DNA of 54,536 bases. Origin: Prevotella sp. (GTDB lineage: Bacteria > Bacteroidota > Bacteroidia > Bacteroidales > Bacteroidaceae). The position numbers and the translations under genes were made by a program. Position 1 is the first letter of the stretch, and every line of letters begins with the position of its first letter. The notes under the pieces are model-generated. The model was not told the DNA's origin and made no database searches. It was given only the letters and a program-made list of their open reading frames with translations. The stretch covers positions 1 to 54,536 of the forward strand of contig JAFSYY010000094.1 in NCBI GenBank assembly GCA_017455845.1, given 5' to 3'. This document shows positions 5,608 through 51,375 of this stretch, in pieces.

Positions 5608-6372
5608 TTATAGTTTGTCAGGTCGTAATACTTTCACTACAAGAATACTTATTTCGTAGAGCAGCCAGATAGGCAGTGATACGATGCAGAGTGTGAAGAT
5701 GTCGGTGGTGGGGGTGATGATAGCAGCCACGATAAGGATGGCAACGACGGCGTGTCGACGGTAGTGGCTCATGAAATGGTTGCTCAGGATGCCCATCCAC
5801 CCAAGGATGGCACAGACCACAGGTAGTTCAAAGATAACGCCCATCACCAGGCTCATAGAGATAAGCGTGTCGATATACGACTGGAGGGTCAGCATATTGG
5901 CCACGTCGGCACTCACCTGATAGGTTCCCAGGAAACGCACGGTCAAGGGGAATATAAGCAGATAGTTCAGGGCCGTGCCCAGCATGAACATCACGTAGCC
6001 GGAGGTCACAATCCAGAAGCCTGCCTGCCGCTCATTGGCATAGAGGCCTGGCGAGACGAAACGGAACAACTCATAGATGATATAGGGTGCAGCGCACAAC
6101 AGCCCGGCATACATCGCCACCCGCATGTGGGTCAGAAACTGTTCTGTCAGACCAATGTTCATCAGATGGACGCTGAACGGCTCTGCGCCCATCAGCCGGA
6201 ATGTGATAAACTCGCTCGTTCTCGGAGCCAGAACCATGCCGAACAGCCAGTCTTTCATGCAGAAGGCTACAACGGCAAAAACCAAGGCCACACCCAGCGA
6301 ACGCAAGATGACCCATCGCAGAGCCTCGAGGTGCTCCCAGAAGGTCATGCCTGTTTTCTGTTCATAGTTCAT
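5608..6372 (-). CDS. tatC: Twin-arginine translocase subunit TatC
   Basis: 254 residues, six predicted membrane helices. MTFWEHLEALRWVILRS near the N-terminus is the TatC signature, and the conserved cytoplasmic and periplasmic loops follow (FVSPGLYANERQ, GVIFELPVV). TatC binds the twin-arginine signal and nucleates the Tat pore in the inner membrane for export of folded proteins. The tatA gene lies 52 bases upstream on the same strand. The first ATG (6370-6372) lies inside a heptamer array (ttcatag units, 6361-6381), so the first eight residues MNYEQKTG are partly repeat-derived. The next ATG at 6348 would give the canonical N-terminus; either start is possible. Confidence 0.95.
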   Translation of the reverse strand: MNYEQKTGMTFWEHLEALRWVILRSLGVALVFAVVAFCMKDWLFGMVLAPRTSEFITFRLMGAEPFSVHLMNIGLTEQFLTHMRVAMYAGLLCAAPYIIYELFRFVSPGLYANERQAGFWIVTSGYVMFMLGTALNYLLIFPLTVRFLGTYQVSADVANMLTLQSYIDTLISMSLVMGVIFELPVVCAILGWMGILSNHFMSHYRRHAVVAILIVAAIITPTTDIFTLCIVSLPIWLLYEISILVVKVLRPDKL

Positions 6373-6383
6373 AGTTCATAGTT
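6361..6383. repeat. Heptamer array, unit ttcatag x3
   Basis: Three exact ttcatag units (GAACTAT on the minus strand). The second and third units span the first tatC ATG, so the repeat forms the 5' edge of tatC. Confidence 0.9.
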
Positions 6384-6417
6384 GGCTGCCCTTAGGATGG
6401 CGGCAGCAAATTTTTCG

Positions 6418-6437
6418 CTTTTCACTATTCACTTTTA
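6418..6437. repeat. Heptamer array at the tatA stop
   Basis: Units ttcacta and ttcactt in succession. Read on the minus strand they give the last codons of tatA (KSE) and its TAG stop at 6425-6427. Confidence 0.75.
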
Positions 6438-6622
6438 CCTGCATCCACCGCATCGTCCACTTCCTTCATGCCCTCCTTGAAACTCTTCACGCCCTTGCCC
6501 ATGCCGCGCATCAGTTCAGGAATCTTGGCTCCACCGAAAAGCAACAGCACCACGAGGGCAATGAGCAGGATCTCCTGTCCACCCAGTCCGAATAATAGTA
6601 ATGTTTTTAGTCCAAGCATCAT
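6425..6622 (-). CDS. tatA: Sec-independent translocase TatA/TatE
   Basis: 65 residues: an N-terminal membrane helix (LLFGLGGQEILLIALVVLLL), the FGG hinge, then the amphipathic helix KIPELMRGMGKGVKSFKEGM and a short acidic tail. This is the full TatA architecture of one helix plus amphipathic helix. It oligomerises to form the Tat conduit. It sits 18 bases downstream of the epimerase gene and 52 upstream of tatC, consistent with cotranscription. Its last codons and stop lie in a heptamer array, so the C-terminal end may be repeat-derived. Confidence 0.93.
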   Translation of the reverse strand: MMLGLKTLLLFGLGGQEILLIALVVLLLFGGAKIPELMRGMGKGVKSFKEGMKEVDDAVDAGKSE

Positions 6623-6640
6623 ATTTGGCTGTTTTAATAA

Positions 6641-7730: not shown

Positions 7731-7771
7731 TTCAATTCTCTCTACTCTCATCTCTTAACTCTCAACTCTTA
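7731..7771. repeat. Heptamer array at a kinase stop codon
   Basis: On the minus strand the units run approximately taagagt, tgagagt, taagaga, tgagagt. The first TAA is the stop codon of the kinase gene at 7769-7771. The array fills the gap before the epimerase gene. Confidence 0.75.
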
Positions 7772-10668: not shown

Positions 10669-12093
10669 TTATTTGTTATTCGGAGTTACAGAAGTTTGGG
10701 ATACCACAGGTACAGAAGTGAAGTGGCTGTCAATGTCTTGCAGTTCCTTCTCCAGCACCTTGTCCATCTGCTGTTTGAGAAAGTGGTCTTCCAGATTTGT
10801 CAGGTAGGCCAGGTCCTGAATGGCTCGTGTGCCAGTGACCAGCAGTCCGCCCAGGTCGAGTTTCATCCATTTCTCCGTGGCGGCAGAGAAAGCCATGTTG
10901 GTGCCTGATGCCATCATGTTAGAGAGCAGCAGTATCTTGCGGGTACGTGCGTCGTAGTATTCACGCGGGCCGTCAAGATCGGGATTATACATAAATCCAT
11001 GCAGCAGTGCCACGGCCATGTTAACCACCAGTGGGAATGCCGCCTGCTGGCCTATGAGCGTCAGGTTCTGCATGGTGGCCAACTGCTGTATCTGACTCTG
11101 ATAGAGGTCGCTCATCATGGCTGGTTGCAAGGCTTCCATGGCAGGAGCCAGCACGTCGGTAGTCTCGCCTCGGGCGGCACGGTCCTGGGCATACTGGGCA
11201 TAGACGGCGGCTGTCAGTCGCATGGGGTCGTCCTTGATGCTGCGCATGGCCTCGGCAAGAACCTTATGAGTCTTTACCTTTTCGCCCGTAACAGCATCGA
11301 CCGTCGAGAAGTTGCTGCCAGTCCTTGTGCCGGTAATCTTGTTGACGATGCCGAAGATCCAGTTCATAGCATCGTTATTGAAAGTTTTCACAGGCATACT
11401 GTCTTTCTGCTCCAGAATATCCTGCCACGACTTGCTCTTAGCACCTTGGGTGTTGCCTTCGGTTATCTCCTCAGCCTCCACGTCTTCTATGAATTCCTGA
11501 TTGGCTTCATTAATGAGTGCGATGTCCTTGGTGTCAGGCTTTTGTTCGAGCATAGCCATGGCCGATGGTGACAGGGCGGCAAGCACCTTACCCGACTTTC
11601 CCATCTGGTTGACAATCTTGGGCATCATCACCCACCGTGCCGTCTGTATGCTGGTGGCTGCCGAGAGGAAAGACAGGTCGCGCTTGGTCAGGCCTGTGCG
11701 CTTGGCAAAGGCGTCGTTGATACGCTTCACTTCGTCTATGGCGTAGGTTATTTCCTGGCCTGTGAGCAGGTCCTCCATCACGATGTCGTGGGGTATTCCT
11801 TCGTGGTCGGCCCGTTTCTCAAGAGACTCCCATGAGGGAATGTCCGTCATTTCGCACCTCGTACCTCGTACCTCGCACTTTGAAGAACTATCCTCGCGCC
11901 TCGCACCTCGTACCTCGCACCTCGAATCCAGTGCCTTGGCTCGCTCTTTCAGGTCGTTCAGCCGTTGGTTCATCTGGCTGAGCGACTGGGTGGCATCGGC
12001 AGTCTGCTCCTGCAACCTTTTCAGGTCGCTCTCCTGCATCTTCAACACACGCAGTGTCTTCTGCTCGTAGTCGTTATATTTCTTCTCAGCCAT
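10669..12093 (-). CDS. Uncharacterised 474-residue protein with N-terminal coiled coil
   Basis: No family recognised. Residues 1-55 are heptad-rich and probably a coiled coil (KKYNDYEQKTLRVLKMQESDLK). Residues about 56-81 are encoded by heptamer repeat DNA (CEVRGARRED and KCEVRGTRCEM). The rest is mainly helical, with moderately hydrophobic stretches (AFPLVVNMAVALLHGFMY; KILLLSNMMASGTNMAFSAA) that could be amphipathic or membrane-associated helices. There is no signal peptide. It is the third gene of a tightly spaced cassette (gaps 14 and 6 bases) with a 131-residue coiled-coil protein and a 221-residue secreted protein. The proteins probably work together, but I cannot name a function. Confidence 0.75.
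   Translation of the reverse strand: MAEKKYNDYEQKTLRVLKMQESDLKRLQEQTADATQSLSQMNQRLNDLKERAKALDSRCEVRGARREDSSSKCEVRGTRCEMTDIPSWESLEKRADHEGIPHDIVMEDLLTGQEITYAIDEVKRINDAFAKRTGLTKRDLSFLSAATSIQTARWVMMPKIVNQMGKSGKVLAALSPSAMAMLEQKPDTKDIALINEANQEFIEDVEAEEITEGNTQGAKSKSWQDILEQKDSMPVKTFNNDAMNWIFGIVNKITGTRTGSNFSTVDAVTGEKVKTHKVLAEAMRSIKDDPMRLTAAVYAQYAQDRAARGETTDVLAPAMEALQPAMMSDLYQSQIQQLATMQNLTLIGQQAAFPLVVNMAVALLHGFMYNPDLDGPREYYDARTRKILLLSNMMASGTNMAFSAATEKWMKLDLGGLLVTGTRAIQDLAYLTNLEDHFLKQQMDKVLEKELQDIDSHFTSVPVVSQTSVTPNNK
11852..11879. repeat. Heptamer array inside a coding sequence, first block
   Basis: Units tcgcacc, tcgtacc, tcgtacc, tcgcact on the plus strand (minus-strand unit gaggtac/gaggtgc). Read in frame in the 474-residue protein. 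Confidence 0.85.
11894..11927. repeat. Heptamer array inside a coding sequence, second block
   Basis: Units tcgcgcc, tcgcacc, tcgtacc, tcgcacc, tcgaatc, separated from the first block by 14 bases (two unit lengths). Three units make 21 bp, so the encoded peptide repeats every 7 residues (CEVRGAR / CEVRGTR). Confidence 0.85.
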
Positions 12094-13246: not shown

Positions 13247-13254
13247 TTTTATTG

Positions 13255-13328: not shown

Positions 13329-13366
13329 TTTCCATATTGTCTTTCGTGCCCTAACTGAATCGAGTG

Positions 13367-13673: not shown

Positions 13674-13728
13674 ATTGAAGATTGATAATTGAAGATTGAT
13701 AATTGAAAAATGAAGATTGAGAATTAAG
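13674..13728. repeat. Heptamer array, attgaag/attgata units
   Basis: Units attgaag, attgata, attgaag, attgata and then degenerate copies ending attaag. The alternation gives a 14-bp higher-order unit. It abuts the 22-bp array directly. Confidence 0.85.
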
Positions 13729-18442: not shown

Positions 18443-19939
18443 ATGGAACTTAAAACTTATCTCAAAATCAATCCTGCCGACTCTGTTGTAGTCTGCTTAG
18501 TAGAAAAGAAAAAAGGTGACATCATCGAGGCCGGAGGCGAGCGTGTGGTGCTTGCAGAAGACGTGCCTGCTGGTCACAAGGTGCTGTTGCGCGACGTGAA
18601 AGAAGGTGAGAACATTATAAAGTACGGCTATCCCATAGGCCATGCCCGTAAGGATCTCAAGGCTGGTGAATGGGTGAATGAGAATAACCTGAAGACTAAT
18701 CTGTCTGGTACGCTGGAGTACACTTATTCTCCTGTCAACGAACAACTTAACATAAAACTGGAGAATCGTACATTTAAGGGATATGTCCGCAAGAACGGTG
18801 ACGTGGGTGTGCGCAATGAGATATGGATTGTGCCCACGGTAGGCTGTGTCAACGGCATTGCAGAGCGTCTGGCCAGACAATTGCGCGAAGAGACGGGGTG
18901 TGAGGGCGTGGACGCTATCTATACCTGGCATCACAACTATGGCTGTTCGCAACTGAGCGGCGACCATGAGAATACACGCAAGGTGCTGCGCGACATCGTA
19001 CTTCATCCCAATGCCGGAGCCGTGCTGGTGTTAGGATTGGGGTGTGAGAATAATCAACCCGATGACTTCATGAAACTTTTGGGCGACTATGATAAGGACC
19101 GCATTCGTCTGCTGGTCACGCAGAAGGTTGATGGCGATGAGGTGGAAGCAGGCATGCAGGTGTTGCGCGAACTCTATGCCATAGCCAAGAAAGACAGACG
19201 GGAGAACGTGCCTGTCAGCAAACTGCGCGTTGGCCTGAAGTGCGGCGGCAGCGACGGCTTCAGCGGCATCACGGCTAATCCGCTCGTGGGAGAGTTCTCC
19301 GACTGGCTGGTGGCTCAGGGTGGTACGTCCGTGCTGACTGAGGTGCCGGAGATGTTTGGTGCCGAGACCATACTGATGAACCGTTGCGAGACACCAGAAC
19401 TCTTCGCCAAGACCGTCTCGATGATCAATAATTTCAAGGAGTATTTCCTGAGCCATGGCGAACCTGTGGGTGAGAACCCAAGTCCAGGCAACAAGGCCGG
19501 AGGCATCTCCACTTTGGAAGACAAGGCACTGGGATGCACGCAGAAATGCGGTCGCGCACCGGTCAGCGGCGTGATGGAATATGGCGACCGTCTGCAGGCT
19601 ACGGGGCTAAACCTCCTCTCCGCTCCCGGCAACGACCTGGTGGCTGCTACCGCCCTTGCCTCCTGCGGCTGTCATCTGGTGCTCTTCACTACTGGTCGTG
19701 GCACGCCTTTCGGAACCTTCGTGCCCACGATGAAGATTGCCACCAATCCTACCTTGGCCGCACGCAAGCCAAACTGGGTGGACTTCAGTGCCGGACAGTT
19801 GGTGGAAGGACGCACCATGGAAGAACTGGTGCCAGAGTTTATTGACAAGGTGCTGGCTGTGGCCAGTGGCGAGAAGGCACGTAACGAAGAAAACGACTAT
19901 CGGGAGATTTCTATCTTCAAGAATGGTGTAACTCTTTGA
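18443..19939 (+). CDS. uxaA: Altronate dehydratase
   Basis: 498 residues from the ATG at 18443, preferred over an in-frame TTG at 18419 that overlaps the regulator gene. The N-terminal SAF-type domain (about 1-95) is followed by GYVRKNGDVGVRNEIWIVPTVGCVN, YGCSQL, LKCGGSDGFSGITANP and CGCHLVLFTTGRGTPFG, the UxaA/GarD signature with metal-binding Cys/His. It dehydrates D-altronate to 2-keto-3-deoxygluconate in galacturonate catabolism. Partner genes uxaB and uxaC are not in the window. The stop codon TGA at 19937-19939 lies at the start of a heptamer array. Confidence 0.93.
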   Translation: MELKTYLKINPADSVVVCLVEKKKGDIIEAGGERVVLAEDVPAGHKVLLRDVKEGENIIKYGYPIGHARKDLKAGEWVNENNLKTNLSGTLEYTYSPVNEQLNIKLENRTFKGYVRKNGDVGVRNEIWIVPTVGCVNGIAERLARQLREETGCEGVDAIYTWHHNYGCSQLSGDHENTRKVLRDIVLHPNAGAVLVLGLGCENNQPDDFMKLLGDYDKDRIRLLVTQKVDGDEVEAGMQVLRELYAIAKKDRRENVPVSKLRVGLKCGGSDGFSGITANPLVGEFSDWLVAQGGTSVLTEVPEMFGAETILMNRCETPELFAKTVSMINNFKEYFLSHGEPVGENPSPGNKAGGISTLEDKALGCTQKCGRAPVSGVMEYGDRLQATGLNLLSAPGNDLVAATALASCGCHLVLFTTGRGTPFGTFVPTMKIATNPTLAARKPNWVDFSAGQLVEGRTMEELVPEFIDKVLAVASGEKARNEENDYREISIFKNGVTL

Positions 19940-19977
19940 AAATTGAAGATAGAAAATCGAAAATCGTAAATCGATAA
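19936..19977. repeat. Heptamer array at the uxaA stop
   Basis: Units ttgaaaa, ttgaaga, tagaaaa, tcgaaaa, tcgtaaa, tcgataa drift gradually along the array. The uxaA TGA stop lies in the first unit. The array fills most of the gap before the sigma factor gene. Confidence 0.85.
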
Positions 19978-24066: not shown

Positions 24067-24072
24067 CAAAAT

Positions 24073-24107
24073 AATTCATAATTCATGATTCATAATTCAT
24101 AATTATT
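24073..24107. repeat. Heptamer array, aattcat units
   Basis: aattcat, aattcat, gattcat, aattcat, aattatt in exact register. It lies between the divergent promoters of proS and the OmpA-family lipoprotein gene, where both -33 elements would be expected. Confidence 0.9.
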
Positions 24108-24846: not shown

Positions 24847-24888
24847 ATTGAAAATTGAAGTTTGAAAATTGAAGATTGAGAATTGAAA
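24847..24888. repeat. Heptamer array, attgaaa units, carrying the mtgA start
   Basis: Six units in register: attgaaa, attgaag, tttgaaa, attgaag, attgaga, attgaaa. The TTG in the last unit (24883-24885) is the likely mtgA start codon. The array begins right after the stop of the OmpA-like gene. Confidence 0.9.
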
Positions 24889-25575
24889 AAGTTTTTCAAT
24901 CACTTACGTAGAATAGTCCAATGGACTATGGCATTATTCTTCGGCACTACCATTCTTGCAGTGGTAGTGCTGAAGTTTTTACCCGTCTATTATACCCCAT
25001 TGATGTTTTTCCGGCTGTTTCAGCAGGATGAAATGAAACTAAGTCATACCTGGGTGCCCCTGCGACAGATGTCGCCCAACATGCCACTGGCAGTCATGGC
25101 CAGCGAGGATGCCCGTTTTCAAGAGCACTGGGGCTTTGACTTCGAAGCCATACAGAAAGCAGCCGAGCGTAATGCCAAACATCCCGAGAAAAACAAACTG
25201 GGTGCATCGACCATTTCGCAGCAGACGGCTAAGAACGTGTTCCTGTGGCCCGGCCGGTCATGGGTGCGCAAGGGCTTGGAGGCCTATTTCACGGTGTTGA
25301 TAGAGGTGTTCTGGTCAAAAGAACGCATCATGGAGGTCTATCTCAACTCTATTGAGACGGGGCCTGGAATCTATGGCGTCGAGGCTGTGGCTCAGGAGCA
25401 TTTCGGATGCAGTGCCTATGATCTTACAAGAAACCAGTGTGCCTTGATTGCAGCCACGCTGCCTAACCCCATCCGTTTCAGCAGTAAGGCACCTAGTCCG
25501 TATATGAAAAAACGTCAGCGATGGATTCTTACGAACATGAAATATGTGGAACCGCTAAAAAATACGAAAGAATAG
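24883..25575 (+). CDS. mtgA: Monofunctional peptidoglycan glycosyltransferase
   Basis: 230 residues from TTG 24883: a basic N-terminus (KKFFNHLRR), one membrane helix (ALFFGTTILAVVVLKFL), then the GT51 domain with ASEDARFQEHWGFDFEAIQ (catalytic Glu), KLGASTISQQTAKNVFL, KERIMEVYLNSIETGPGIYG and the late AATLPNPIRF. It polymerises lipid II into glycan strands on the periplasmic face. No ATG precedes the membrane helix, so the TTG, inside a heptamer array, is the best start; the next in-frame ATG would remove the basic anchor. The nth gene begins directly after the stop. Confidence 0.93.
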   Translation: MKKFFNHLRRIVQWTMALFFGTTILAVVVLKFLPVYYTPLMFFRLFQQDEMKLSHTWVPLRQMSPNMPLAVMASEDARFQEHWGFDFEAIQKAAERNAKHPEKNKLGASTISQQTAKNVFLWPGRSWVRKGLEAYFTVLIEVFWSKERIMEVYLNSIETGPGIYGVEAVAQEHFGCSAYDLTRNQCALIAATLPNPIRFSSKAPSPYMKKRQRWILTNMKYVEPLKNTKE

Positions 25576-26214
25576 ATGAGGAAGGAAGAGCGATACAGAC
25601 AAGTGCTGGAACATTTCAGGAAAGAAATGCCCGAGGTGAACACAGAACTGGAGTTTGGCAGTGTGTTTCAGTTGTTGGTGGCTGTCATACTAAGTGCACA
25701 GTGCACGGATAAAAGGGTGAACCAGGTGACACCAGAGTTGTTCAGGCATTTTCCTGATGCCAAGAGTATGGCACAGGCAGAGCCTGACGATGTGCTGGAA
25801 TATATCAGTAGCGTGAGTTACCCTAATTCGAAGGCTGCCCATTTGGTGGCGATGGCGCGCATGCTGATGGAACGTTTCGAGGGTGAGGTGCCTGCTGATA
25901 TGAACCAGTTGCTCGACCTGCCCGGCGTGGGGCGTAAGACGGCGAACGTAATACAGGCGGTAGCCTTCGGACAGTCGGCGATGCCTGTTGATACGCATGT
26001 CTTTCGAGTGAGTCACCGGCTGGGGCTGGTATCGAAACGTGAGAATACACCCTATAAGGTGGAGCAGATGCTCATCAAGAACATCCCTGGTGATGAGGTG
26101 GCACGTGCCCATCACTGGCTGTTGCTGCATGGTCGCTATATCTGCACCTCGCGCAAGCCCCATTGCGAACATTGTCCATTTGCTGCCTTCTGTCCCAATA
26201 GAATTGAGAGTTAA
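25576..26214 (+). CDS. nth: Endonuclease III
   Basis: 212 residues. Helix-hairpin-helix LPGVGRKTANVI with the catalytic Lys, the catalytic Asp in PVDTHVFRV, and the C-terminal [4Fe-4S] ligand set C-x6-C-x2-C-x5-C (CTSRKPHC, EHC, PFAAFC). It removes oxidised pyrimidines and nicks abasic sites. The ATG touches the mtgA TAG, so it is probably cotranscribed. The last residues RIES and the TAA stop are encoded by a heptamer array. Confidence 0.96.
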   Translation: MRKEERYRQVLEHFRKEMPEVNTELEFGSVFQLLVAVILSAQCTDKRVNQVTPELFRHFPDAKSMAQAEPDDVLEYISSVSYPNSKAAHLVAMARMLMERFEGEVPADMNQLLDLPGVGRKTANVIQAVAFGQSAMPVDTHVFRVSHRLGLVSKRENTPYKVEQMLIKNIPGDEVARAHHWLLLHGRYICTSRKPHCEHCPFAAFCPNRIES

Positions 26215-26228
26215 GAATTATGAATTTA
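26201..26228. repeat. Heptamer array at the nth stop
   Basis: gaattga, gagttaa, gaattat, gaattta. The second unit contains the nth TAA stop (26212-26214). Confidence 0.85.
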
Positions 26229-26250: not shown

Positions 26251-26251
26251 G

Positions 26252-32200: not shown

Positions 32201-33661
32201 ATGATTACGTTTATAGTGAGCCTCGTGGCTCTTGTGTTGGGTTATTTCCTCTATGGACGCTTTGTAGAGAGAGTGTTTGGCCCTGACAACAGACCGACGC
32301 CGGCCGTTGCCAAGGCCGATGGTGTGGACTTCATGGTGCTGCCGTCGTGGAAGATCTTCATGATTCAGTTCCTCAATATTGCCGGCACAGGCCCTATCTT
32401 CGGTGCCATCATGGGTGCGAAGTTCGGTCCTGCCGCCTATCTGTGGATAGTGCTGGGATGCATCTTCGCCGGTGCTACGCACGACTATATGAGCGGTATG
32501 CTCTCGATGCGCAACGGCGGTGCTAACCTGCCGGAGATCATCGGCAAGTATCTGGGCAACATACCCAAGCAGGTGATGCTGGTATTCTCGGTATTCCTGC
32601 TGATGATGGTAGGTGCGGTGTTCGTATATAGCCCTGCCTCACTGCTGCAGACCCTGTGCATGGGTTCTGGCGTGGAACTGCTTCAAAGCAGCACGTTCTG
32701 GATTATCGTCATCTTCGTTTACTATGTCATTGCCACGATGATGCCCATCGACAAGATTATCGGCAAGATTTATCCGCTCTTTGCCTTCTCGCTGCTGTTC
32801 ATGGCTGTGGCGCTGATGGTGATGCTGTTTACCAAGATGCCCGACATTCCAGAGGTATGGGAGGGCGTTGGTGAGGCCTCGCTGACCACGAAGAACATCT
32901 TCCCCTGTCTGTTTATTACCATCGCCTGTGGAGCCATCAGCGGCTTCCATGCTACGCAGAGCCCCTTGATGGCCCGCTGCGTAAAGAGCGAGAAGACGGG
33001 GCGCCCTATCTTCTATGGTGCCATGATAACCGAGGGACTGGTAGCACTCATCTGGGCTACTGTGGCCATGTATTTCTTCTATAACGAGCCTACGCCCGGC
33101 TATCAGGAGATGGCTGGTGGCGAGCAGATTATCAGCAAGGCTCCTGGCATCGTGAATATGGTCTGTGAGAACTGGCTCGGACTCTTTGGCAGCATCCTGG
33201 CAATCCTCGGCGTGGTGGCAGCACCCATCACCAGTGGTGATACCGCCCTTCGCTCGGCCCGCCTTATCATTGCCGACTTCATCCACCTAGAGCAGCGGAG
33301 CATCAGCAAGCGCCTGTATGTCTGCGTGCCTATGTTTGCTGCTGTCATTGCCCTCCTTATCTGGCAGATGGCCAATCCAGAGGGCTTCGATGTGATATGG
33401 AGTTGGTTCGGATGGAGCAACCAGACGCTGTCGGTCTTCACCCTCTGGGCTATCACCGTCTATCTGGTGCAGCAGCGCAAGAACTATTTCATCACGCTTA
33501 TTCCTGCCCTGTTTATGACGACGGTATGCATGACCTATCTGCTTTCCGAGCAGGTGCTGAGTCTTGACTTCACATACGCCGTATGCATTGCAGTGGTAAC
33601 ATGTGTGGTTGCCTTAGGCTGGTTCCTACTGTGGAAATCAAAAAGGAAGATTGAAAATTGA
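32201..33661 (+). CDS. cstA: Carbon starvation protein A family transporter
   Basis: 486 residues, about 13 hydrophobic segments. MITFIVSLVALVLGYFLYGRF, QFLNIAGTGPIFGAIMGAKFGPAAYLWIVLG, HDYMSGMLSMRNGGANLPEI and AAPITSGDTALRSARLIIAD are CstA/BtsT signatures. Members carry pyruvate or peptides during starvation. It is shorter than E. coli CstA (about 700 residues) but normal for the short class. The promoter fixes the start. The C-terminal KIEN and TGA stop come from a heptamer array. The upstream 22-bp palindrome array is a strong candidate control region. Confidence 0.93.
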   Translation: MITFIVSLVALVLGYFLYGRFVERVFGPDNRPTPAVAKADGVDFMVLPSWKIFMIQFLNIAGTGPIFGAIMGAKFGPAAYLWIVLGCIFAGATHDYMSGMLSMRNGGANLPEIIGKYLGNIPKQVMLVFSVFLLMMVGAVFVYSPASLLQTLCMGSGVELLQSSTFWIIVIFVYYVIATMMPIDKIIGKIYPLFAFSLLFMAVALMVMLFTKMPDIPEVWEGVGEASLTTKNIFPCLFITIACGAISGFHATQSPLMARCVKSEKTGRPIFYGAMITEGLVALIWATVAMYFFYNEPTPGYQEMAGGEQIISKAPGIVNMVCENWLGLFGSILAILGVVAAPITSGDTALRSARLIIADFIHLEQRSISKRLYVCVPMFAAVIALLIWQMANPEGFDVIWSWFGWSNQTLSVFTLWAITVYLVQQRKNYFITLIPALFMTTVCMTYLLSEQVLSLDFTYAVCIAVVTCVVALGWFLLWKSKRKIEN

Positions 33662-33681
33662 AGATTGAAGATTGAAAATTA
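33648..33681. repeat. Heptamer array at the cstA stop
   Basis: attgaaa, attgaag, attgaag, attgaaa, attaaac. It encodes the last residues and TGA stop of cstA and fills the gap to the next gene. Confidence 0.85.
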
Positions 33682-33704: not shown

Positions 33705-34205
33705 ATGAAGAAAACAATTGTAGCAGCGCTTTGTGCGCTATTGTTCACGCTCACTGGCAATGCACAGACGCAAGACAGTCTGCCTTTTGCCAAAGACAAG
33801 TTCTATACCGCTGCCAGCCTCTCAAACTTTGACATCAACTGGAATAAGAGTCAGAGTTGGCATGCTGATCTGGCTGCCAAGTGTGGATACCTGTTTGAGG
33901 ATGACTGGATGATAACTGCCAATTTAGGCTATGACTGGTACAAGGTGGGAAGTAATACTTTCAAGGCTGGTGCAGGCCTGCGCTACTATATCGAGCAGAA
34001 CGGCCTCTTCCTGGGTGCCGGTGCCGACTATCTACATTCCGAAGGCTTTGACGACTTTATGCCTACCGTTCAGTTGGGTTATGCGTTCTTCCTGAACCGC
34101 ACTGTGACCATTGAGCCCGAAGTCTACTATAACCTGAGTCTGAAAGATCATAATGAATACAGCGGCTTTGGCTTCCGCATCGGCTTCGGCATCTACTTTG
34201 AGTGA
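33705..34205 (+). CDS. Small outer-membrane beta-barrel-like protein
   Basis: 166 residues from the ATG at 33705 (MKKTIVAALCALLFTLTGNAQ signal peptide); an upstream in-frame reading from 33672 begins in repeat DNA and is not preferred. Mature sequence alternates in strands (KCGYLFEDDWMITANLGYDW; FKAGAGLRYYIEQNGLFLGAGADY; PTVQLGYAFFLNRTVTIEPEVYYNLSL) and ends with FRIGFGIYFE, an outer-membrane barrel pattern of the OmpW/OprF-like size class. Function unknown. Sits between cstA and nadC, separated on both sides by heptamer arrays. Confidence 0.82.
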   Translation: MKKTIVAALCALLFTLTGNAQTQDSLPFAKDKFYTAASLSNFDINWNKSQSWHADLAAKCGYLFEDDWMITANLGYDWYKVGSNTFKAGAGLRYYIEQNGLFLGAGADYLHSEGFDDFMPTVQLGYAFFLNRTVTIEPEVYYNLSLKDHNEYSGFGFRIGFGIYFE

Positions 34206-34235
34206 TTGAAGATTGAAGATTGAAAATTGAAGATT
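34204..34235. repeat. Heptamer array upstream of nadC
   Basis: attgaag, attgaag, attgaaa, attgaag, att, running from the stop of the barrel gene to the base before the nadC ATG. Its gaag segments lie at ribosome-binding distance from the ATG. Confidence 0.9.
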
Positions 34236-35084
34236 ATGCTGAGTGTAGAGGAATTGAATGATAAGTTGATAGACCTCGCTTTTGCCGAGGATATCGGCGA
34301 TGGTGACCATACCACGCTCTGCTGCATCCCCGAGGATGCGATGGGCAAGAGTCACCTGTTGATCAAGGAAGACGGCATCCTGGCAGGTGTAGAGATAGCC
34401 AAGGAGGTGTTCCACCGCTTTGACCCCGACATGCAGGTCGAGGTGCTGATGGGCGACGGCTCGCGTGTAAAGAAAGGTGACATAGCCATGGTGGTGACGG
34501 GTCGCGTTCGCTCGTTGCTGCAGACTGAGCGTCTGATGCTCAACATCATGCAGCGCATGAGTGGCATTGCCACGATGACCGACCGCTATGTGAAGCGCTT
34601 AGAGGGAACAGGTACCCGTGTGCTCGACACCCGTAAGACTACTCCCGGCATGCGCATGCTGGAGAAACAGGCCGTGAAGATTGGTGGTGGGTGCAACCAC
34701 CGTATCGGACTCTTCGACATGATTCTGCTGAAGGACAATCATGTGGACTTTGCCGGCGGCATTGTCAATGCTATTGACCGCTGTCATAAATACCTGGAAG
34801 AAAAGGGATTGAACCTGAAGATTGAAATTGAAGTTAGAAACTTCGACGAACTCCAGCAGGTGCTCAATCATGGTGGTGTTGACCGTGTGATGCTCGACAA
34901 CTTCAGCGTGGCTGACACGAAGAAAGCCGTCGAGATGGTGAACCACCGCTTCGAGACAGAGTCGAGTGGCGGTATTACCTTCGACACCATTCGCGACTAT
35001 GCCGAGCAGGGCGTTGACTTTATCTCCGTGGGTGCCTTGACGCATAGTGTGAAAGGACTCGATATGTCGTTTAAGGCGTGTTGA
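34236..35084 (+). CDS. nadC: Quinolinate phosphoribosyltransferase
   Basis: 282 residues from the ATG at 34236; an in-frame TTG three codons upstream lies in repeat DNA. Motifs: EDIGDGDHTTLCCIP, ERLMLNIMQRMSGIATMT, VLDTRKTTPGMRMLEKQAVKIGGGCNHRIGLFDMILLKDNH (substrate and PRPP site) and EIEVRNFDEL. It converts quinolinate and PRPP to nicotinate mononucleotide in NAD synthesis. Stop TGA at 35082-35084 falls at the first unit of a heptamer array that then supplies the next gene's start. Confidence 0.96.
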   Translation: MLSVEELNDKLIDLAFAEDIGDGDHTTLCCIPEDAMGKSHLLIKEDGILAGVEIAKEVFHRFDPDMQVEVLMGDGSRVKKGDIAMVVTGRVRSLLQTERLMLNIMQRMSGIATMTDRYVKRLEGTGTRVLDTRKTTPGMRMLEKQAVKIGGGCNHRIGLFDMILLKDNHVDFAGGIVNAIDRCHKYLEEKGLNLKIEIEVRNFDELQQVLNHGGVDRVMLDNFSVADTKKAVEMVNHRFETESSGGITFDTIRDYAEQGVDFISVGALTHSVKGLDMSFKAC

Positions 35085-35110
35085 GAAGTGAGAAGTGAGA
35101 AGTGAGAAGA
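35083..35110. repeat. Heptamer array, gagaagt x3 plus gagaaga
   Basis: Four units in exact register. The array overlaps the nadC TGA stop on its left and contains the GTG start of the glucosaminidase gene (35102-35104) on its right, so it joins two genes. Confidence 0.93.
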
Positions 35111-36035: not shown

Positions 36036-36401
36036 TTAAAGATGTGGCAATAGTTGCTGCACGTAGGGGCGTTCCCAGTCGCGCAGGTGATGGCGGGTGT
36101 CATCATACTGTAGTATGTCAAGGTCGATGTTCACGATGCCCTGTTCGCGGTCTTCCTGAGTACGTCCTAATTGTTTCTCAATATCTTTCAGGGCATCTTT
36201 CAGTTGGCTGAAAGTCAGTGTCGTCAGGGCTTCCACCATCTGGTTATGATAAGGGCAGGGGCCTTTGCCTCCGTATGGAGGGCTCTCTATCACCATCGTA
36301 TAATGCTCAAAACAAAGAATCTGCTCGAGGCACTTGCGTGCTTCGGGCAGATTCTTTTCTGCATCGCTGTTCGAGCCTAACAATATGATACAATTATGCA
36401 T
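36036..36401 (-). CDS. folK: HPPK (2-amino-4-hydroxy-6-hydroxymethyldihydropteridine diphosphokinase)
   Basis: 121 residues, short for the family (about 150-160). IILLGSNSDAEKNLPEARKCL opens the fold, SPPYGGKGPCPYHNQMVEALT is the pterin-binding region, and NIDLDIL carries the two metal-binding Asp residues. The usual WGPR before DLDIL is replaced by REQGIVN. It makes the folate precursor pyrophosphate. Its ATG (36399-36401) and the upstream maeB stop lie in the same heptamer array. Confidence 0.85.
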   Translation of the reverse strand: MHNCIILLGSNSDAEKNLPEARKCLEQILCFEHYTMVIESPPYGGKGPCPYHNQMVEALTTLTFSQLKDALKDIEKQLGRTQEDREQGIVNIDLDILQYDDTRHHLRDWERPYVQQLLPHL

Positions 36402-36423
36402 TATGAATTATGCATTATGCATT
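36393..36423. repeat. Heptamer array bridging maeB and folK
   Basis: attatgc, attatga, attatgc, attatgc in register. The minus-strand ATG of folK (36399-36401) and the TAA stop of maeB (36415-36417) both fall in it, so one array makes the end of one gene and the start of the next. Confidence 0.93.
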
Positions 36424-38718: not shown

Positions 38719-38727
38719 CGTATATAT

Positions 38728-38776
38728 AATTCATAATTAATAATTCACAATTCACAATTCATAATTCACAATTAAA
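38728..38776. repeat. Heptamer array, aattcac/aattcat units
   Basis: Seven units in register: aattcat, aattaat, aattcac, aattcac, aattcat, aattcac, aattaaa. It fills the gap between the putative porin gene and maeB. Confidence 0.92.
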
Positions 38777-42711: not shown

Positions 42712-42735
42712 TCATTTCTCATTACTCATTTTTAA
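42712..42735. repeat. Weak heptamer-like array
   Basis: atttctc, attactc, attttta: period 7 but poorly conserved. It sits directly before the ATG of the AlaX-like gene. Confidence 0.45.
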
Positions 42736-44964: not shown

Positions 44965-47372
44965 AATTATCGGAACTGAAGACGGGCGAGAAAGCCGTCA
45001 TAGTGAAGGTGCTGGGTCACGGAGGCTTCCGTAAGCGCATCATCGAGATGGGATTTATCAAGGGTAAGACCATCGAGGTGCTGCTTAATGCGCCCCTGCA
45101 AGACCCCGTGAAATATCGCGTGATGGGCTATGAGGTGAGCCTGCGTCATCAGGAGGCCGAGCAAATCATCGTGACCCAGGGCGACGAGAGCAAGAGTGGT
45201 GACGAGGTACGAGGTTCGAGATACGAGGTACGAAGTACGTGGTACGAGGATGACACCATGCATGCTGCCTGGCGCGAGCACCGCACCATCACCGTGGCCC
45301 TGGTGGGCAACCCTAATTGCGGCAAGACCTCGCTGTTTAATTTTGCCTCTGGTGCCCATGCCCATGTAGGCAACTACAGCGGTGTCACCGTTGATGCCAC
45401 AGTGGCCCATGCCTCGATGTACGGCTATACCTTCCTGCTCACCGACCTGCCAGGCACCTATTCCCTCTCATGCTATAGTCCTGAAGAACTCTACGTGCGC
45501 AAGCATCTGAGTGAGCAGATGCCCGACGTGGTCATCAACGTCATCGATGCCTCCAACCTGGAGCGCAACCTGTATCTGACCACCCAGTTGATGGATATGA
45601 ACGTGCGTATGGTGTGCGCATTGAATATGTACGACGAGTTTGAGCGTCGCGGCGACTCTGTTGATATCGACACCCTGTCGTCGCTCTTCGGCCTGCCGAT
45701 GGTGCCCACGTCGTTCAAGAGCGGCATGGGACTGAAAGAACTGTTCCGTGCCGTCATCCAGGTCTATGAGGGTGCCAACAAGTCGGTCCGCCACTTGCAT
45801 ATCAACTATGGTCATGAGATAGAAGACGGCATAGCCCAGATACAGAAATTCCTGAAGGCTGACGAGCACATCAGCCAGCATTACAGCACGCGCTACCTGG
45901 CCATCAAACTGCTGGAGCACGACAGCGACGCCTTGCAGTATATTGGTCAGCATCTGGCCGACGAGCACCGCCCTGAAGACCGCAAGCGGCTACTGCTGGC
46001 ACGCGACGTGGCCGATACGCGTGTGAAGGAAGAGACAGGACAGGATGCCGAGACAACCATTATGGATGCGAAATACGGTTTTATCAACGGTGCACTGAAG
46101 GAGGCCTCTTACCAGACAGGCACCAAGACAGACACCTACCGCGTGACCCATCTGATAGACCATGTGTTGTCCAACCGCTTCCTGGGATTGCCCATCTTCT
46201 TCCTCATCCTCTTCGTGATGTTCCAGACCACCTTTGCCCTGGGTCAGTATCCTATGGACTGGATAGAGTGGGGGATAGCGTGGCTGGGCAACCGTCTGTC
46301 GACGATGATGGCCGACGGGCCGCTGCGCTCCATGCTCATCGACGGCGTGATAGGCGGCGTGGGCTCTGTCATCGTGTTCATGCCTCAGATTCTGATACTC
46401 TATTTCTTCATCTCGTTCATGGAAGACTCCGGCTATATGTCGCGTGCCGCCTTTATCATGGACCGCCTGATGCACAAGATGGGTCTTCACGGCAAGTCGT
46501 TCATACCGTTGGTCATGGGCTTTGGCTGTAATGTGCCGGCAGTGATGGCCACCCGCACCATAGAGAGCCGCCGTTCGCGCCTCATCACGATGATGATACT
46601 CCCCTTTATGTCGTGCTCGGCTCGTCTGCCCATCTATATCATGATAGTGGGCACGTTCTTTGCCGTGGAGTATCGTTCGTGGGTCATGATTTCGCTCTAT
46701 GCCGTTGGTATCCTGCTGGCTGTGGTGGTGAGCAAGGTCTTGTCGCGTTTTGTCATCAAGGGCGAGGACACGCCGTTTGTGATGGAACTGCCCCCTTATC
46801 GTTTTCCTACGGCCAAGGCCATCATGCGCCATACGTGGGAGAAATGCAAGGAATACCTGAAGAAGATGGGCGGCATCATCCTTGTGGCCAGCATCATAGT
46901 GTGGGGCTTGGAGTATTTCCCCCATGACGACAGCCTCACGCAGCAGCAACAGCAGGAGCAGTCGTATATAGGGCGCATGGGCAAAGCCATAGAACCCGTG
47001 TTCACACCCCAGGGCTTCGGCTGGAAACTCGATGTCTCGCTGATTGCCGGTGTGGGTGCCAAGGAGATTGTGGCTTCAACCATCGGCGTGCTTTATAGCG
47101 GCGACGACAGTTTTGGCGACGATGACGACTATTCGCAGGACACAACCAAATACACGGTGTTACACCAGGCGATGGCAGCCGACGGCATCACGCCGCTCTC
47201 GGCCTACTGCTTCCTCCTGTTTGTGCTGATTTACTTCCCCTGTATCGCCACTATTGTAGCCATCAAAAACGAAACAGGCTCATGGCGTTGGGCATGTATA
47301 TCGGCCCTTTACACCACAAGCCTGGCTTGGCTCATTTCTGCTATTGTCTATCAGGTTGGCATGCTCTGCTGA
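44961..47372 (+). CDS. feoB: FeoA-FeoB fusion, ferrous iron transporter
   Basis: 803 residues. Residues 1-72 are FeoA (SH3-like, MKLSELKTGEKAVIVKVLGHGGFRKRIIEMGF). Residues about 82-97 are a repeat-encoded linker (DEVRGSRYEVRSTWYED). Residues 112-330 are the G protein: GNPNCGKTS (G1), DLPGTYSLSCYSPEE (G3), ALNMYDE (G4). The membrane part follows with two Gate regions (GFGCNVPAVMATRTIESRRS; GVGAKEIVASTIGVLY). It imports Fe2+ across the inner membrane. The gene starts on the last bases of the C69 peptidase. Confidence 0.95.
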   Translation: MKLSELKTGEKAVIVKVLGHGGFRKRIIEMGFIKGKTIEVLLNAPLQDPVKYRVMGYEVSLRHQEAEQIIVTQGDESKSGDEVRGSRYEVRSTWYEDDTMHAAWREHRTITVALVGNPNCGKTSLFNFASGAHAHVGNYSGVTVDATVAHASMYGYTFLLTDLPGTYSLSCYSPEELYVRKHLSEQMPDVVINVIDASNLERNLYLTTQLMDMNVRMVCALNMYDEFERRGDSVDIDTLSSLFGLPMVPTSFKSGMGLKELFRAVIQVYEGANKSVRHLHINYGHEIEDGIAQIQKFLKADEHISQHYSTRYLAIKLLEHDSDALQYIGQHLADEHRPEDRKRLLLARDVADTRVKEETGQDAETTIMDAKYGFINGALKEASYQTGTKTDTYRVTHLIDHVLSNRFLGLPIFFLILFVMFQTTFALGQYPMDWIEWGIAWLGNRLSTMMADGPLRSMLIDGVIGGVGSVIVFMPQILILYFFISFMEDSGYMSRAAFIMDRLMHKMGLHGKSFIPLVMGFGCNVPAVMATRTIESRRSRLITMMILPFMSCSARLPIYIMIVGTFFAVEYRSWVMISLYAVGILLAVVVSKVLSRFVIKGEDTPFVMELPPYRFPTAKAIMRHTWEKCKEYLKKMGGIILVASIIVWGLEYFPHDDSLTQQQQQEQSYIGRMGKAIEPVFTPQGFGWKLDVSLIAGVGAKEIVASTIGVLYSGDDSFGDDDDYSQDTTKYTVLHQAMAADGITPLSAYCFLLFVLIYFPCIATIVAIKNETGSWRWACISALYTTSLAWLISAIVYQVGMLC
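45204..45250. repeat. Heptamer array inside feoB
   Basis: gaggtac, gaggttc, gagatac, gaggtac, gaagtac, gtggtac in register, translated as the linker between FeoA and the G domain. Same unit as the in-gene array at 11852-11927 on the other strand. Confidence 0.92.
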
Positions 47373-49028: not shown

Positions 49029-49070
49029 CGAAAAAAAAATGATATATGCCAATTGACCGTTGACATTTTT

Positions 49071-49487
49071 TTATTCGCGCTTAAAAAAAAGCGTGGCAGG
49101 CAGTTTCTGCCATTTGCCGTTGTTGGGAACTTTAAGTGTAGAGCCTTTGCCCTGTTTCAACACATAGATGCTGTCGTTCCGGCGCGTCAGTGTGGCTTCC
49201 AAGTCTTCGCTGCCATAGTCGTTCACCATTTCCAGGAAGGCTTTATCGCCCTTCACCTCGGCACTGATGATAGGCCAGCAGAAACTGTTGTGCTCCTTGC
49301 CCAGGTAGCCGGGCAGGGGGCCGAGCAACTCCTGTCCTGGAATCTCTATGCTCTGATGGTGGAAATCTATTCTCAGATACACCTTGTATTCCTTGTTGGA
49401 AAGATAGGCATGAAAGGCCGTGCTGTCTGTCTGCGCGTATGCCATATTGCCCAGAACGGCGAGGAGGCTGATAAGAAGAAATCTCAT
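49071..49487 (-). CDS. Uncharacterised 138-residue secreted protein
   Basis: Signal peptide MRFLLISLLAVLGNMAYAQ, then a small beta-rich protein (YKVYLRIDFHHQSIEIPGQE; EATLTRRNDSIYVLKQGKGS) with no motif I recognise. The start lies opposite the glycogen synthase promoter, so the two genes diverge. It may be cotranscribed into the ABC-F gene, which has its own promoter. Confidence 0.75.
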   Translation of the reverse strand: MRFLLISLLAVLGNMAYAQTDSTAFHAYLSNKEYKVYLRIDFHHQSIEIPGQELLGPLPGYLGKEHNSFCWPIISAEVKGDKAFLEMVNDYGSEDLEATLTRRNDSIYVLKQGKGSTLKVPNNGKWQKLPATLFFKRE

Positions 49488-49566
49488 GATGATGTATTTT
49501 TTGTTTACAAAATTACTAGTTTTATGTCAATTATTTGCTGGAATCGGAAAAAATGTTGGATAATTC

Positions 49567-49598
49567 TTGTAGATTTAAGAATATTTTAAGTATCTTTG
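49567..49598 (+). promoter_or_regulatory. Promoter of the glycogen synthase gene
   Basis: TTG at 49567-49569 and TATCTTTG at 49591-49598, spacer 21; the ATG is 23 bases further. Confidence 0.65.
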
Positions 49599-49620
49599 CA
49601 GCCGTTTATAAACAAAAGCA

Positions 49621-51375
49621 ATGAGTAAAAAGTTATTAACTCCAGATTACATCTTTGAGTCGAGTTGGGAAGTATGCAATAAAGTAGGAGGTATCTATAC
49701 CGTACTTTCAACACGCGCAAAGACGCTACAGGAGAAGTTTCAGGATAGAATCATATTCATTGGTCCTGATTTTAGGAAAGTAAAGGAGGCTGGCGACGAG
49801 CAGCAGGAAATGGTGGATAATCCCTATTTCCGCGAAGAGCCGTCGCTCTTTGCTCAGTGGCAATGGGAGGCCAAGGAGAAAGGCATCAAAGTAAGGGTAG
49901 GGCGGTGGACCATTCCAGGCGAGCCGATAGCCATCCTTGTGGACTTTATGCCCTATTTCGCCCAGAAGGATGCCATCTATACGTGGTTATGGGAGAAGTA
50001 TAAGGTTGACTCGTTGCATGCCTACGGCGACTACGACGAGGCCTCCATGTTCTCGTATGCCGCAGGACTGGTGGTGGAGAGCCTGTACCACTGGATTGAG
50101 AATGAAAAATTGGAAATTGAAAATTCTTCTACGCGCAGCCATTCTTCACTCTTCACTCTTCACTCTTCACTAAAAGCGGTCTACCACGCCAACGAATGGA
50201 TGTGCGGACTGGGTGCCCTATATATTAATAATAAGGTGCCGCAGATAGCCACCATCTTCACTACCCATGCCACCAGCATAGGGCGTTCCATTGCCGGCAA
50301 CCAGAAGCCTCTCTACGACTATCTCTTTGCCTATAACGGCGATCAGATGGCCGAGGAACTGAACATGCAGTCGAAGCACTCTATAGAGAAACAGACCGCC
50401 TGGCATGTGGACTGCTTTACAACGGTGAGCGACATCACTGCACATGAGTGCTTGGAACTGCTCGACAAGCCTGTAGATGTGGTGCTGCCCAACGGCTTCG
50501 ACAATAGTTTCGTACCTAAGGCAGCCGCCTTCACCAAGAAGCGCAGGCAGGCCAGGGAAAAGATGCTCCAGGTGGCTAACGCCCTGCTGGGAGAGAATCT
50601 GGGCGACGATACCATCATCGTTTCCACATCGGGCCGCTATGAGTTCCGCAACAAGGGTATCGATGTCTTTGTTGAGGCCATGAACCGTCTGCTGCGCGAC
50701 CGCAACCTGAAGAAGAAGGTTCTTGCGTTCATCGTGGTGCCCGGCTGGGTGGGCGAGCCCCGCAAGGACCTGCAGTACCGACTTGAAGAGGGCCTGCCCT
50801 ACGATACCCCCTTGGAAGTGCCTCAGGTCACCCATTGGCTGCACAACATGGGTCACGACAATGTGCTCAACATGATGAAGTTCTACGATATGCACAACCG
50901 CCACGAGGACAACGTGAAGGTTGTCTTCCTGCCCTGCTATCTCGACGGCAAGGACGGCATCTTGAATCTGACCTACTACGACGTGGTGGTGGGCAACGAC
51001 CTCTGCATCTATCCCTCATACTACGAGCCCTGGGGCTATACACCCCTTGAGGCCGTGGCTTTCAAGGTGCCCTGCATCACCACCGACCTGGCCGGCTTCG
51101 GCCTCTGGGCCAACAAGGAGTTTGGGCACGAAGGGCAGTTGGACGACGGCGTGAAGGTGATTCACCGCACTGACTACAACTACTCTGAGGTGGCCGACTA
51201 TATCAAGGACACCGTGGCACAGTATTCTGCCATGAACAAGACCCAGGTCGATGCCTGTCGCAAGGCTGCCGAATCGCTGTCGAAGAAGGCTCTCTGGAGC
51301 GAGTTCATCAAGTACTACTACGAGGCCTACGACATTGCTTTGCAGCGCGCCAAGGAGCGCATGAGCCAACTTTGA
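49621..51375 (+). CDS. Glycogen synthase (GT3-like)
   Basis: 584 residues. FESSWEVCNKVGGIYTVLSTRA near the N-terminus is the GT3 (animal/fungal-type) glycogen synthase signature rather than the bacterial GlgA one. Later motifs: YHANEWMCGLGALYINN, TIFTTHATSIGRSIAG, FTTVSDITAHEC, VVLPNGFDNS and YEPWGYTPLEAVAF (donor site). It adds glucose from UDP-glucose or ADP-glucose to glycogen. Residues about 162-184 (KLEIENSSTRSHSSLFTLHS) are encoded by two heptamer arrays, an in-frame insertion in a loop. The next gene overlaps by 4 bases; the phosphorylase lies further downstream. Confidence 0.92.
   Translation: MSKKLLTPDYIFESSWEVCNKVGGIYTVLSTRAKTLQEKFQDRIIFIGPDFRKVKEAGDEQQEMVDNPYFREEPSLFAQWQWEAKEKGIKVRVGRWTIPGEPIAILVDFMPYFAQKDAIYTWLWEKYKVDSLHAYGDYDEASMFSYAAGLVVESLYHWIENEKLEIENSSTRSHSSLFTLHSSLKAVYHANEWMCGLGALYINNKVPQIATIFTTHATSIGRSIAGNQKPLYDYLFAYNGDQMAEELNMQSKHSIEKQTAWHVDCFTTVSDITAHECLELLDKPVDVVLPNGFDNSFVPKAAAFTKKRRQAREKMLQVANALLGENLGDDTIIVSTSGRYEFRNKGIDVFVEAMNRLLRDRNLKKKVLAFIVVPGWVGEPRKDLQYRLEEGLPYDTPLEVPQVTHWLHNMGHDNVLNMMKFYDMHNRHEDNVKVVFLPCYLDGKDGILNLTYYDVVVGNDLCIYPSYYEPWGYTPLEAVAFKVPCITTDLAGFGLWANKEFGHEGQLDDGVKVIHRTDYNYSEVADYIKDTVAQYSAMNKTQVDACRKAAESLSKKALWSEFIKYYYEAYDIALQRAKERMSQL
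50104..50172. repeat. Paired heptamer arrays inside the glycogen synthase gene
   Basis: Left part gaaaaattggaaattgaaaa (50104-50123), right part ttcactc, ttcactc, ttcactc, ttcacta (50145-50172), in opposite orientation around a short unique piece. 69 bases long, no frame change. Confidence 0.9.

Follow-up and report, generated by a model that had tools for sequence, protein, structure and literature searches.

Dispersed heptanucleotide arrays in a Prevotella genome, possibly in many cases arms of small palindromic elements

Introduction

The contig JAFSYY010000094.1 of Prevotella sp. (assembly GCA_017455845.1; positions 1 to 54,536, 54,536 nucleotides), which is called the window here, carries short tandem arrays with a period of 7 bp between and within its genes. 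A preliminary description of this DNA had ascribed them to one process that amplifies whatever heptamer is present. In this study, the arrays were followed through the window, the genome from which it comes (G000, the own genome) and other genomes of the genus and phylum, and we discuss whether many of them might be arms of small dispersed palindromic elements. That bacteria have an excess of 7-bp tandem repeats has been known since 2007 (Mrazek, as cited in PMC4679880 and PMC4692102). A survey of 7006 genomes reported the heptamer excess again, with no clear functional clue in its account of these repeats (PMC6344855). The preliminary description knew of no case from Bacteroidetes; heptamer arrays are in fact on record there and in many other bacteria (PMC4679880, PMC6344855).

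Results

On the minus strand of the window, positions 6360..6433 hold a GAATAGT-like array, the TTTGCTGCCGC motif, a 16-bp middle and an (AACTATG)3 array, the last of which contains the called start codon of tatC (TatC by Pfam). A GAGAGTT-type array on the same strand lies between two minus-strand genes (7738..7769), and two CGAGGTRC arrays (11852..11924, minus strand) lie in frame and in sense in a 474-aa open reading frame (ORF) that encodes CEVRGTR-type peptide repeats and matches no Pfam family. Past two tandem tRNA-Asp (GTC) genes (13254-13440), a long intergenic stretch holds a ATTGAAGATTGATA array on the plus strand (13674..13725). Several plus-strand arrays meet stop codons. The upstream gene ends within a GAAAATC/GAAAATT array (19936..19973) that includes its stop codon, a GAAAATT/GAAGATT array stands immediately past a stop codon (24847..24889), the CstA gene has its stop codon inside a GAAGATT/GAAAATT array (33646..33680), a GAAGATT array reaches from the stop codon of a 177-aa ORF to the called QRPTase start (34204..34235), and the first TGA of the (GAGAAGT)4 array at 35082..35109 is the QRPTase stop codon. 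Two GAATTAA/GAGTTAA-type arrays in direct order, separated by a short GC-rich spacer, end just before a start codon (26200..26275, plus strand). Arrays on the minus strand are a GAATTAT array (24071..24104) just upstream of a TAnnTTTG-type sequence, which we take to be a promoter motif, with similar flanks at L187 5015; a GAATAGT-type array that closely follows the stop of a minus-strand gene (29213..29238); an (ATGCATA)n array at the junction of malic-enzyme stop and HPPK start (36393..36423); a GAATTAT/GAATTGT array between the Porin_10 and malic-enzyme genes (38726..38773); and a short GAGTAAT/GAGAAAT array shortly past a stop codon (42712..42730). A head-to-head hairpin with an (AATTGAG)n arm, a 31-bp middle and an inverted (TCAATTC)n arm occupies 30153..30252 and is assigned to neither strand. 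A fused protein with FeoA and FeoB_N domains has an in-frame CGAGGTA array between the two (45202..45246, plus strand), at a site where two aligned relatives show no net insertion. Finally, two facing arrays of unlike units (AAATTGG-type and inverted GAAGAGT; no strand assigned) lie in frame in the glycogen synthase gene (50107..50171).

Arrays were detected by a lag-7 match scan (+1/-2; score cut-offs 12 and 9), and Tandem Repeats Finder (TRF) was also run on the window, where it gave 22 period-7 rows. The scan of the window found 16 segments at a score of at least 12 and 22 at a score of at least 9. At score 12, periods 4-6 and 8-11 gave 0 segments, and the multiples 14 and 21 gave 13 and 5. 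Shuffled windows (three per period) were made by a simple edge-shuffling walk that can end early, and therefore the other periods serve as the main control. The own-genome sample comprised 41 stretches (602 kb of 2.43 Mb, 25%) of G000, a metagenome-assembled genome (MAG) that is 68% complete. It contained 207 period-7 segments, compared with 1, 0, 3, 10, 15, 15, 5, 6 and 7 segments at periods 4, 5, 6, 8, 9, 10, 11, 12 and 13; counts were high again at 14 and 21, which are multiples of 7, and each of the first 21 stretches held at least one period-7 array. Period 7 thus stands far above its neighbours, as in bacterial heptamer repeats of the long simple sequence repeat (LSSR) or short tandemly repeated repetitive (STRR) type. 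The excess is weaker in the genus, with 57 period-7 segments against a maximum of 19 for periods 4-6 and 8-13 (916 kb of other members), and slight in the phylum-wide sample (1.47 Mb), with 24 at period 7, 20 at period 9 and at most 10 at the rest of these periods. In small samples of G225, G141 and G073, with 4, 5 and 2 period-7 segments, some other periods were equal or higher, and in G170 period 8 was raised too (13 vs 28 for period 7). The exact period of 7 bp given in the preliminary description was borne out by this genome scan, in which the other periods stay far behind, and a period-7 repeat is present at all ten positions that it quoted. The lowest TRF score among these is that at 26252 (34; 3.4 copies, 76% match).

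Consensus units contain GAR in 196 of the 207 own arrays (127.2 expected from shuffled letters), TGAR in 147 (43.5 expected) and CGAR in 30 (5.5 expected). TGAR is also found in 30 of 57 units of the other genus stretches, where 11.4 were expected and 200 shuffles gave 19 at most. The own genome has 42 distinct units, 15 of them seen once, and the top six families account for 105 of 207 arrays. The pattern (GARNNNT)4 was detected in 222 of 249 genus genomes, with 0-558 hits each and the own genome at the top, and in 111 of 198 genomes of the phylum sample. In some genus genomes the reversed control exceeds GARnnnT (1 vs 292 in G180, 71 vs 223 in G163, 87 vs 230 in G181, 106 vs 233 in G216 and 225 vs 351 in G260). 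The GAR core is therefore a strong tendency in the own genome and many others, not a genus-wide rule.

Inverted neighbours at most 250 bp apart agree in unit within one mismatch in 21 of 25 cases in the own genome, against a random-pair background of 9%. Of these pairs, 21 are head-to-head, with GAR pointing inward (19 unit-matched), and 4 are tail-to-tail (2 matched). The other genus stretches contained 10 head-to-head and 5 tail-to-tail pairs, and all 15 were unit-matched (background 7%). Since inverted neighbours carry the matching unit, they constitute hairpins, and since tail-to-tail pairs exist, polarity is family-specific. Among the positions listed for G085 (all 85 plus-strand hits and 100 of 103 minus-strand hits), 8 head-to-head and 0 tail-to-tail pairs lie within 250 bp. 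Beside GAGCGTT-type arrays, this genome carries a two-hairpin core of its own at six loci (one partial). All 5 sites listed for G587, which belongs to another family, are head-to-head pairs, and their loops differ.

One family is tagged by a fixed core and has the layout (GAANAGT)n-ATTTGCTACCGC-middle-GCGGTAGCAAAT-inverted arm. In the own genome, GAAGART arrays often terminate in AAT-TTGCTACCGC (flanks read by eye). At a lenient array threshold (score 7), 22 of the 27 TTGCTACCGC sites in the own sample adjoin an array, as do two other flank motifs at 6 of 6 and 5 of 5 sites. Copies of TTGCTACCGC number 69 in the own genome, against 10 for the reversed control, and the 13-mer AATTTGCTACCGC occurs there 57 times (reversed control 0). 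Of 200 genus genomes 81 carry it, against 10 hits of the reversed control, spread over 9 of these genomes. Another 28 motif sites were read in 17 other species, at 20 loci, seven of these loci being picked for two motif copies facing each other; 25 of the 28 sites adjoin an array at the same lenient threshold, and the units are GAAGAGT, GAAAAGT, GAATAGT or GAACAGT. The variable base agrees between the arms of 13 paired elements from other species at 73% of 37 positions; shuffled partners agree at 33%, and 0 of 2000 shuffles reached 73%. The paired elements carry terminal inverted repeats, as miniature inverted-repeat transposable elements (MITEs) do. Palindromic inverted pairs like those of repetitive extragenic palindromic sequences and their hairpin-forming doublets (REP/REPIN) are formed by only part of the arrays, including facing TTGCTACCGC copies. 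Other flanks recur as well. In G170 and G156 (L242-L261), GAATTAT arrays are flanked by CGGTAATCAT, with the GAR strand outward, and GTAATCAT/ATGATTACC-like sequence flanks GAGTAAT arrays in the own genome (L007 10987, L190 15497), where it is possibly a second core common to several species.

Array lengths are peaked. The bins 21-27, 28-34 and 35-41 nt hold 35, 81 and 24 of 219 own arrays, 9, 36 and 5 of 56 arrays in the sister species G156 and G170 (18 of 56 being exactly 32 nt), and 11, 53 and 5 of 98 arrays in other genus stretches. For arrays with neither core nor partner the hump is weaker but present (19, 46 and 19 of 148). The steady fall of numbers with length expected of slipped-strand microsatellites was absent from all three sets. 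When slippage was simulated under nine geometric settings with the same detector, a comparable hump arose in 0 of 9.

With genes called by our own codon-score script (440 genes, 87% coding), 89 own arrays lie between codirectional genes, 76 inside genes, 20 in divergent and 8 in convergent regions and 14 at contig edges. The arrays are thus dispersed and mainly intergenic, with 131 of 207 outside called genes (the 14 at contig edges included) in DNA that is 87% coding. In codirectional gaps, the upstream stop codon is part of the array in 32 of 89 cases and -2 to +3 nt away from it in another 21; 59 arrays are in sense, 21 in antisense and 9 ambiguous. Sense and antisense arrays number 26 vs 5 where the stop lies inside the array and 20 vs 11 beyond 3 nt from it. 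Inside genes, TGAR is found in 39 of 46 antisense arrays and CGAR in 15 of 25 sense arrays, as predicted by purging of in-frame TGA. Stop codons thus filter which arrays survive, and the core, present on both strands, looks like a property at the DNA level. Three other origins of core or orientation were rejected. Stop-codon seeding as the entire origin of TGAR is contradicted by the arrays abutting a stop (-2 to +3 nt), of which 17 of 21 follow TAA or TAG, and by the antisense arrays in genes, which retain the core. Translation-driven orientation does not fit a sense bias that peaks where the array contains the stop codon. Replication-strand bias is not apparent on the 2.69-Mb G085 contig, where arrays of either orientation are intermingled; the GC skew of 20 samples from this contig gave no clean origin or terminus.

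Internal arrays were found in 51 own genes, and a spanning relative was available for 15. At the site of the array the own protein is longer by at least 3 residues in 10 of these and not in 5; the lengthened proteins include two ABC ATPases (in a similar loop), a DUF3109 protein and a SpoIID-domain protein. A HemW-like gene, named by eye and not called by the gene script, holds two arrays. A leader cassette is repeated at L181 3147-3307, L181 1-197, L186 16301-16466 and L191 3041-3219. It consists of an upstream TTGCTACC-type element and a start reading MKMT(V/M)KWLGAA (by eye), and an antisense heptamer array forms its hydrophobic signal-peptide segment (FFILHSS repeats). In the RNase P RNA (rnpB; Rfam 195 bits), GAAGATT arrays lie in two loops, which we take to be those of helices P3 and P12, and both arrays start with TTTTTAGATTG (by eye). 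An array in P3 was seen in none of the rnpB genes of 45 relatives, and one in P12 in none of the 22 relatives in which the loop could be cut out.

The malic-enzyme/HPPK junction (36393) could be read in 24 relatives. Arrays are missing from 20 of them, and the arrays of the other 4 are made of different units. A single ATGCAT stands at the HPPK start in several of the relatives without an array, in place of the (ATGCATA)n of the own genome. The nearest named loci by malic-enzyme protein belong to a sheep-abomasum Prevotella MAG (91% identity) and the Prevotellaceae MAG RUG12212 (88%); synteny around the gene in the named genomes was insufficient for a comparison of arrays. In the sister species G156 and G170, blocks are 81-98% identical, 26 of 37 at 94% or more. 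Of the clusters that could be mapped, 9 of 10 (G170) and 10 of 13 (G156) have a counterpart; 8 and 10 clusters, 18 in total, were unmappable. At shared sites variants were often changed or hairpins duplicated, and a few arrays were unchanged.

The window also contains repeats of other kinds. A 33-bp unit, CCTACCGCAAGCGGTCTTATTTGAAAGTATATT, is present in about 3.9 copies at 54408-54536, reaching the contig end, and includes the palindrome ACCGCAAGCGGT, which occurs 7 times in the first 324 kb sampled. A separate family with an 11/22-bp period (CTGTATACAATTTGTATTCAGC type) lies at 31942-32105, with a likeness in the intergenic L005 14161-15150. Positions 2116-2204 are a perfect 42-bp tandem duplication (2.1 copies), of which the part GGCGGGAAAACCGCC matches some of the commonest 12-mers of the genome sample.

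Discussion

The arrays have a period of 7, a peaked length, inverted neighbours that match in unit and, in one family, a fixed core. Copies lie in genes and in RNA loops, and families differ between species. We would give an even chance to the interpretation that many arrays are arms, or left-over single arms, of small dispersed palindromic elements. A full element would comprise a heptamer array and its inverted copy, with a family- or species-specific middle of some 12-200 bp between them; the array would most often be about 32 bp long, with four to five units that mostly read YGARNNN. Potentially, such elements spread as non-autonomous copies in the manner of REPINs or MITEs. Their arms might anneal with, or be copied from, each other in any 7-bp register, which would add or remove whole heptamers and keep the arms complementary. 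Selection would retain the copies that do little harm, at stop codons and in protein loops and RNA hairpin loops. Arrays that lack both core and partner would belong to such elements by their family and length.

The preliminary interpretation stands in part. Period 7, the variety of units and the lack of conservation hold: the sequence does differ between arrays, which are not copies of one element, and the unchanged arrays at orthologous sites that would have spoken against it were not seen at the one junction compared, where 20 of 24 relatives have no array. Its GARnnnT consensus is an approximation, and counts do not favour this pattern in the species whose reversed control is larger. Amplification of any heptamer does not agree with the few unit families, the fixed flanks of some families, unit-matched inverted neighbours and length peak near 32 bp, and contrary to that description arrays are often not uniform internally, variants of a unit being mixed within one array.

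Several observations weigh against palindromic elements. A direct link to a core motif or an inverted partner was shown for only 59 of the 207 own arrays. Neighbours in the same orientation match in unit too (8 of 15 own pairs, 14 of 18 in the genus set), and tail-to-tail pairs occur (4 own, 5 in the genus set). The motif TTGCTGCCGC, which is related to the core, adjoins an array at just 3 of 10 sites, and the control motifs (0 of 2 and 0 of 0 sites) were too rare to inform. The agreement of arms across species may stem partly from species-wide variants, and 3 of the 13 paired elements come from one locus. Equality of arm length, as a further sign of pairing, was given up: it is weak in the own genome (62% within 4 nt vs 43%, 119 of 5000) and absent in the genus set. 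No target duplication was seen by eye in 20 head-to-head pairs, the array edges of which are imprecise, and a target-site motif was dismissed, the flanks of 187 oriented arrays being merely A/T-rich. Among the mappable clusters of G170 and G156 no clean insertion at an empty site was found, and the sole cluster that lacks a counterpart altogether falls in a region of diverged sequence. The ATGCATA array seems to have been seeded locally, to judge from the single ATGCAT of several relatives. The length distribution of own arrays has a long tail, with 35 of 219 at or above 56 nt, and a slight, broad maximum near 27-32 nt arose under one slippage setting (growth 0.8, 10% mutation). A search among Y1 transposases revealed no mobilising gene.

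Pure slippage with a 7-nt step remains the main rival. It holds that each unit is the local sequence that was first duplicated in situ and that composition bias and selection give the likeness between arrays; the step has been attributed to the length of DNA that contacts the polymerase (Mrazek et al., 2007, as cited in PMC4679880 and PMC4692102). Slippage would account for a strong period 7 with little at 6, 8 or 9, for differing units and a possible local seed at one junction across relatives, for unit and copy-number differences at sites common to the sister species and for matching neighbours in the same orientation. Heptamers are also described as the most abundant intergenic repeats across a wide range of prokaryotes (PMC6344855). 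However, slippage alone predicts neither a sharp hump at 28-34 nt nor a fixed core, unit-matched inverted partners or few unit families, and between the sister species some shared arrays have changed little or not at all. We consider slippage rather unlikely.

It is improbable that the arrays are retained because they offer multiple binding sites on mRNA or DNA, to a translation regulator for instance, a role proposed for TAACTGA repeats (PMC4679880). The recurrent TGAR core and the excess of sense arrays between codirectional genes (59 vs 21) would suit such sites. However, sense arrays predominate most where the array includes the stop (26 of 31 oriented arrays, compared with 20 of 31 beyond 3 nt), 53 of the 89 codirectional arrays contain or abut the upstream stop, arrays also occur on either strand of genes, between divergent genes and in the loops of RNase P RNA, and most relatives have no array at the orthologous junction examined.

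REP/REPIN elements mobilised by a Y1 transposase of the REP-associated tyrosine transposase (RAYT) type would share the palindromic paired layout. Y1 matches occur in 73 of 120 genus genomes, and the median array count is 70 with a match vs 24 (one-sided p 6e-4), or 84 vs 26 for long-frame matches (p 4e-4), in statistics that ignore kinship and completeness. However, strong short Y1 genes show no association (median 16 vs 56, p 0.22), and G125, G008 and G019 are rich in arrays (492, 226 and 177 hits) with no Y1 match. Arrays do not gather at Y1 genes: in 20 loci, 6 of 25 lie within 1.5 kb of them, 5 of these 6 at one locus. No Y1 gene flanked by the element, as is the case for the cognate gene of REP/REPINs, was found in G085 or G000: the Y1 gene of G085 (99% complete) has no array in the surrounding 12 kb, and the only match in G000 is weak (23.3 bits; 21.8 bits, below the cut-off, in another search), with no element copy seen beside it. 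A Y1/RAYT mobiliser is thus not supported, and we regard this explanation as very improbable. A sub-threshold Y1_Tnp match (21.8 bits) was noted in a 368-aa ORF at L011 4047-5153, which has an internal direct repeat with the palindrome TGTTGTGACTGAGTCACAACA or part thereof.

It is tempting to extend the palindromic elements to bacteria at large. Bacterial heptamer repeats would then largely be arms of a widespread class of non-autonomous hairpins with a preferred arm of about 32 bp, and arm pairing in 7-bp registers would set the period. We hold this generalisation to be doubtful. The preferred arm would correspond to four to five heptamers, about three helical turns. If true, arm pairing would explain the global heptamer excess of prokaryotes, from Bacteroidota to the P6b hairpins of Nostoc. 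If the preferred length and the matched pairs hold, the usual slippage account is incomplete. The genus offers up to hundreds of copies per genome, a spread from 0 to 558 pattern hits between species, close species pairs, a core that tags a family, and copies in RNase P RNA and enzyme genes. The origin of heptamer repeats thereby becomes testable. No description of heptamer-armed palindromes in Prevotella was found in the open-licence literature searched.

Arrays within RNase P RNA are a feature of cyanobacterial STRRs. The present case differs in phylum and units, in that two loops are filled, and in its inverted partners with a fixed core. The palindromic elements of Rickettsia lie in frame in protein genes and in RNA genes; they resemble the arrays in this placement but lack heptamer arms. 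REP/REPINs are likewise small, palindromic, dispersed repeats that occur as singletons and inverted dimers, some of them in genes, as described in PMC3116915, PMC3733652 and PMC6006769. Unlike these, the elements proposed here have arms made of heptamer arrays, and no link to a RAYT was found. TAACTGA repeats were described from Beggiatoaceae, Cyanobacteria and five Bacteroidetes (PMC4679880). They consist of one heptamer, which in that account lies mostly just upstream of start codons, whereas the arrays described here have many units, cluster at stops and often form inverted pairs. The GGGAATC and GGGGATT repeats of Xanthomonas and Nostoc are also heptamers and largely intergenic, and those of Xanthomonas most often have four units and include some inverted pairs. 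Their G-tracts form G-quadruplexes, as reported in PMC4692102, whereas most units here have no G-tracts. A close likeness is found in the P6b hairpin of the Nostoc trnL intron, the stem of which is built from the seven-nucleotide motifs TDNGATT or NNTGAGT and gains or loses whole repeats (PMC4476775). The P6b hairpin as described there is one locus in one intron, whereas the arrays of Prevotella form a dispersed set in many species.

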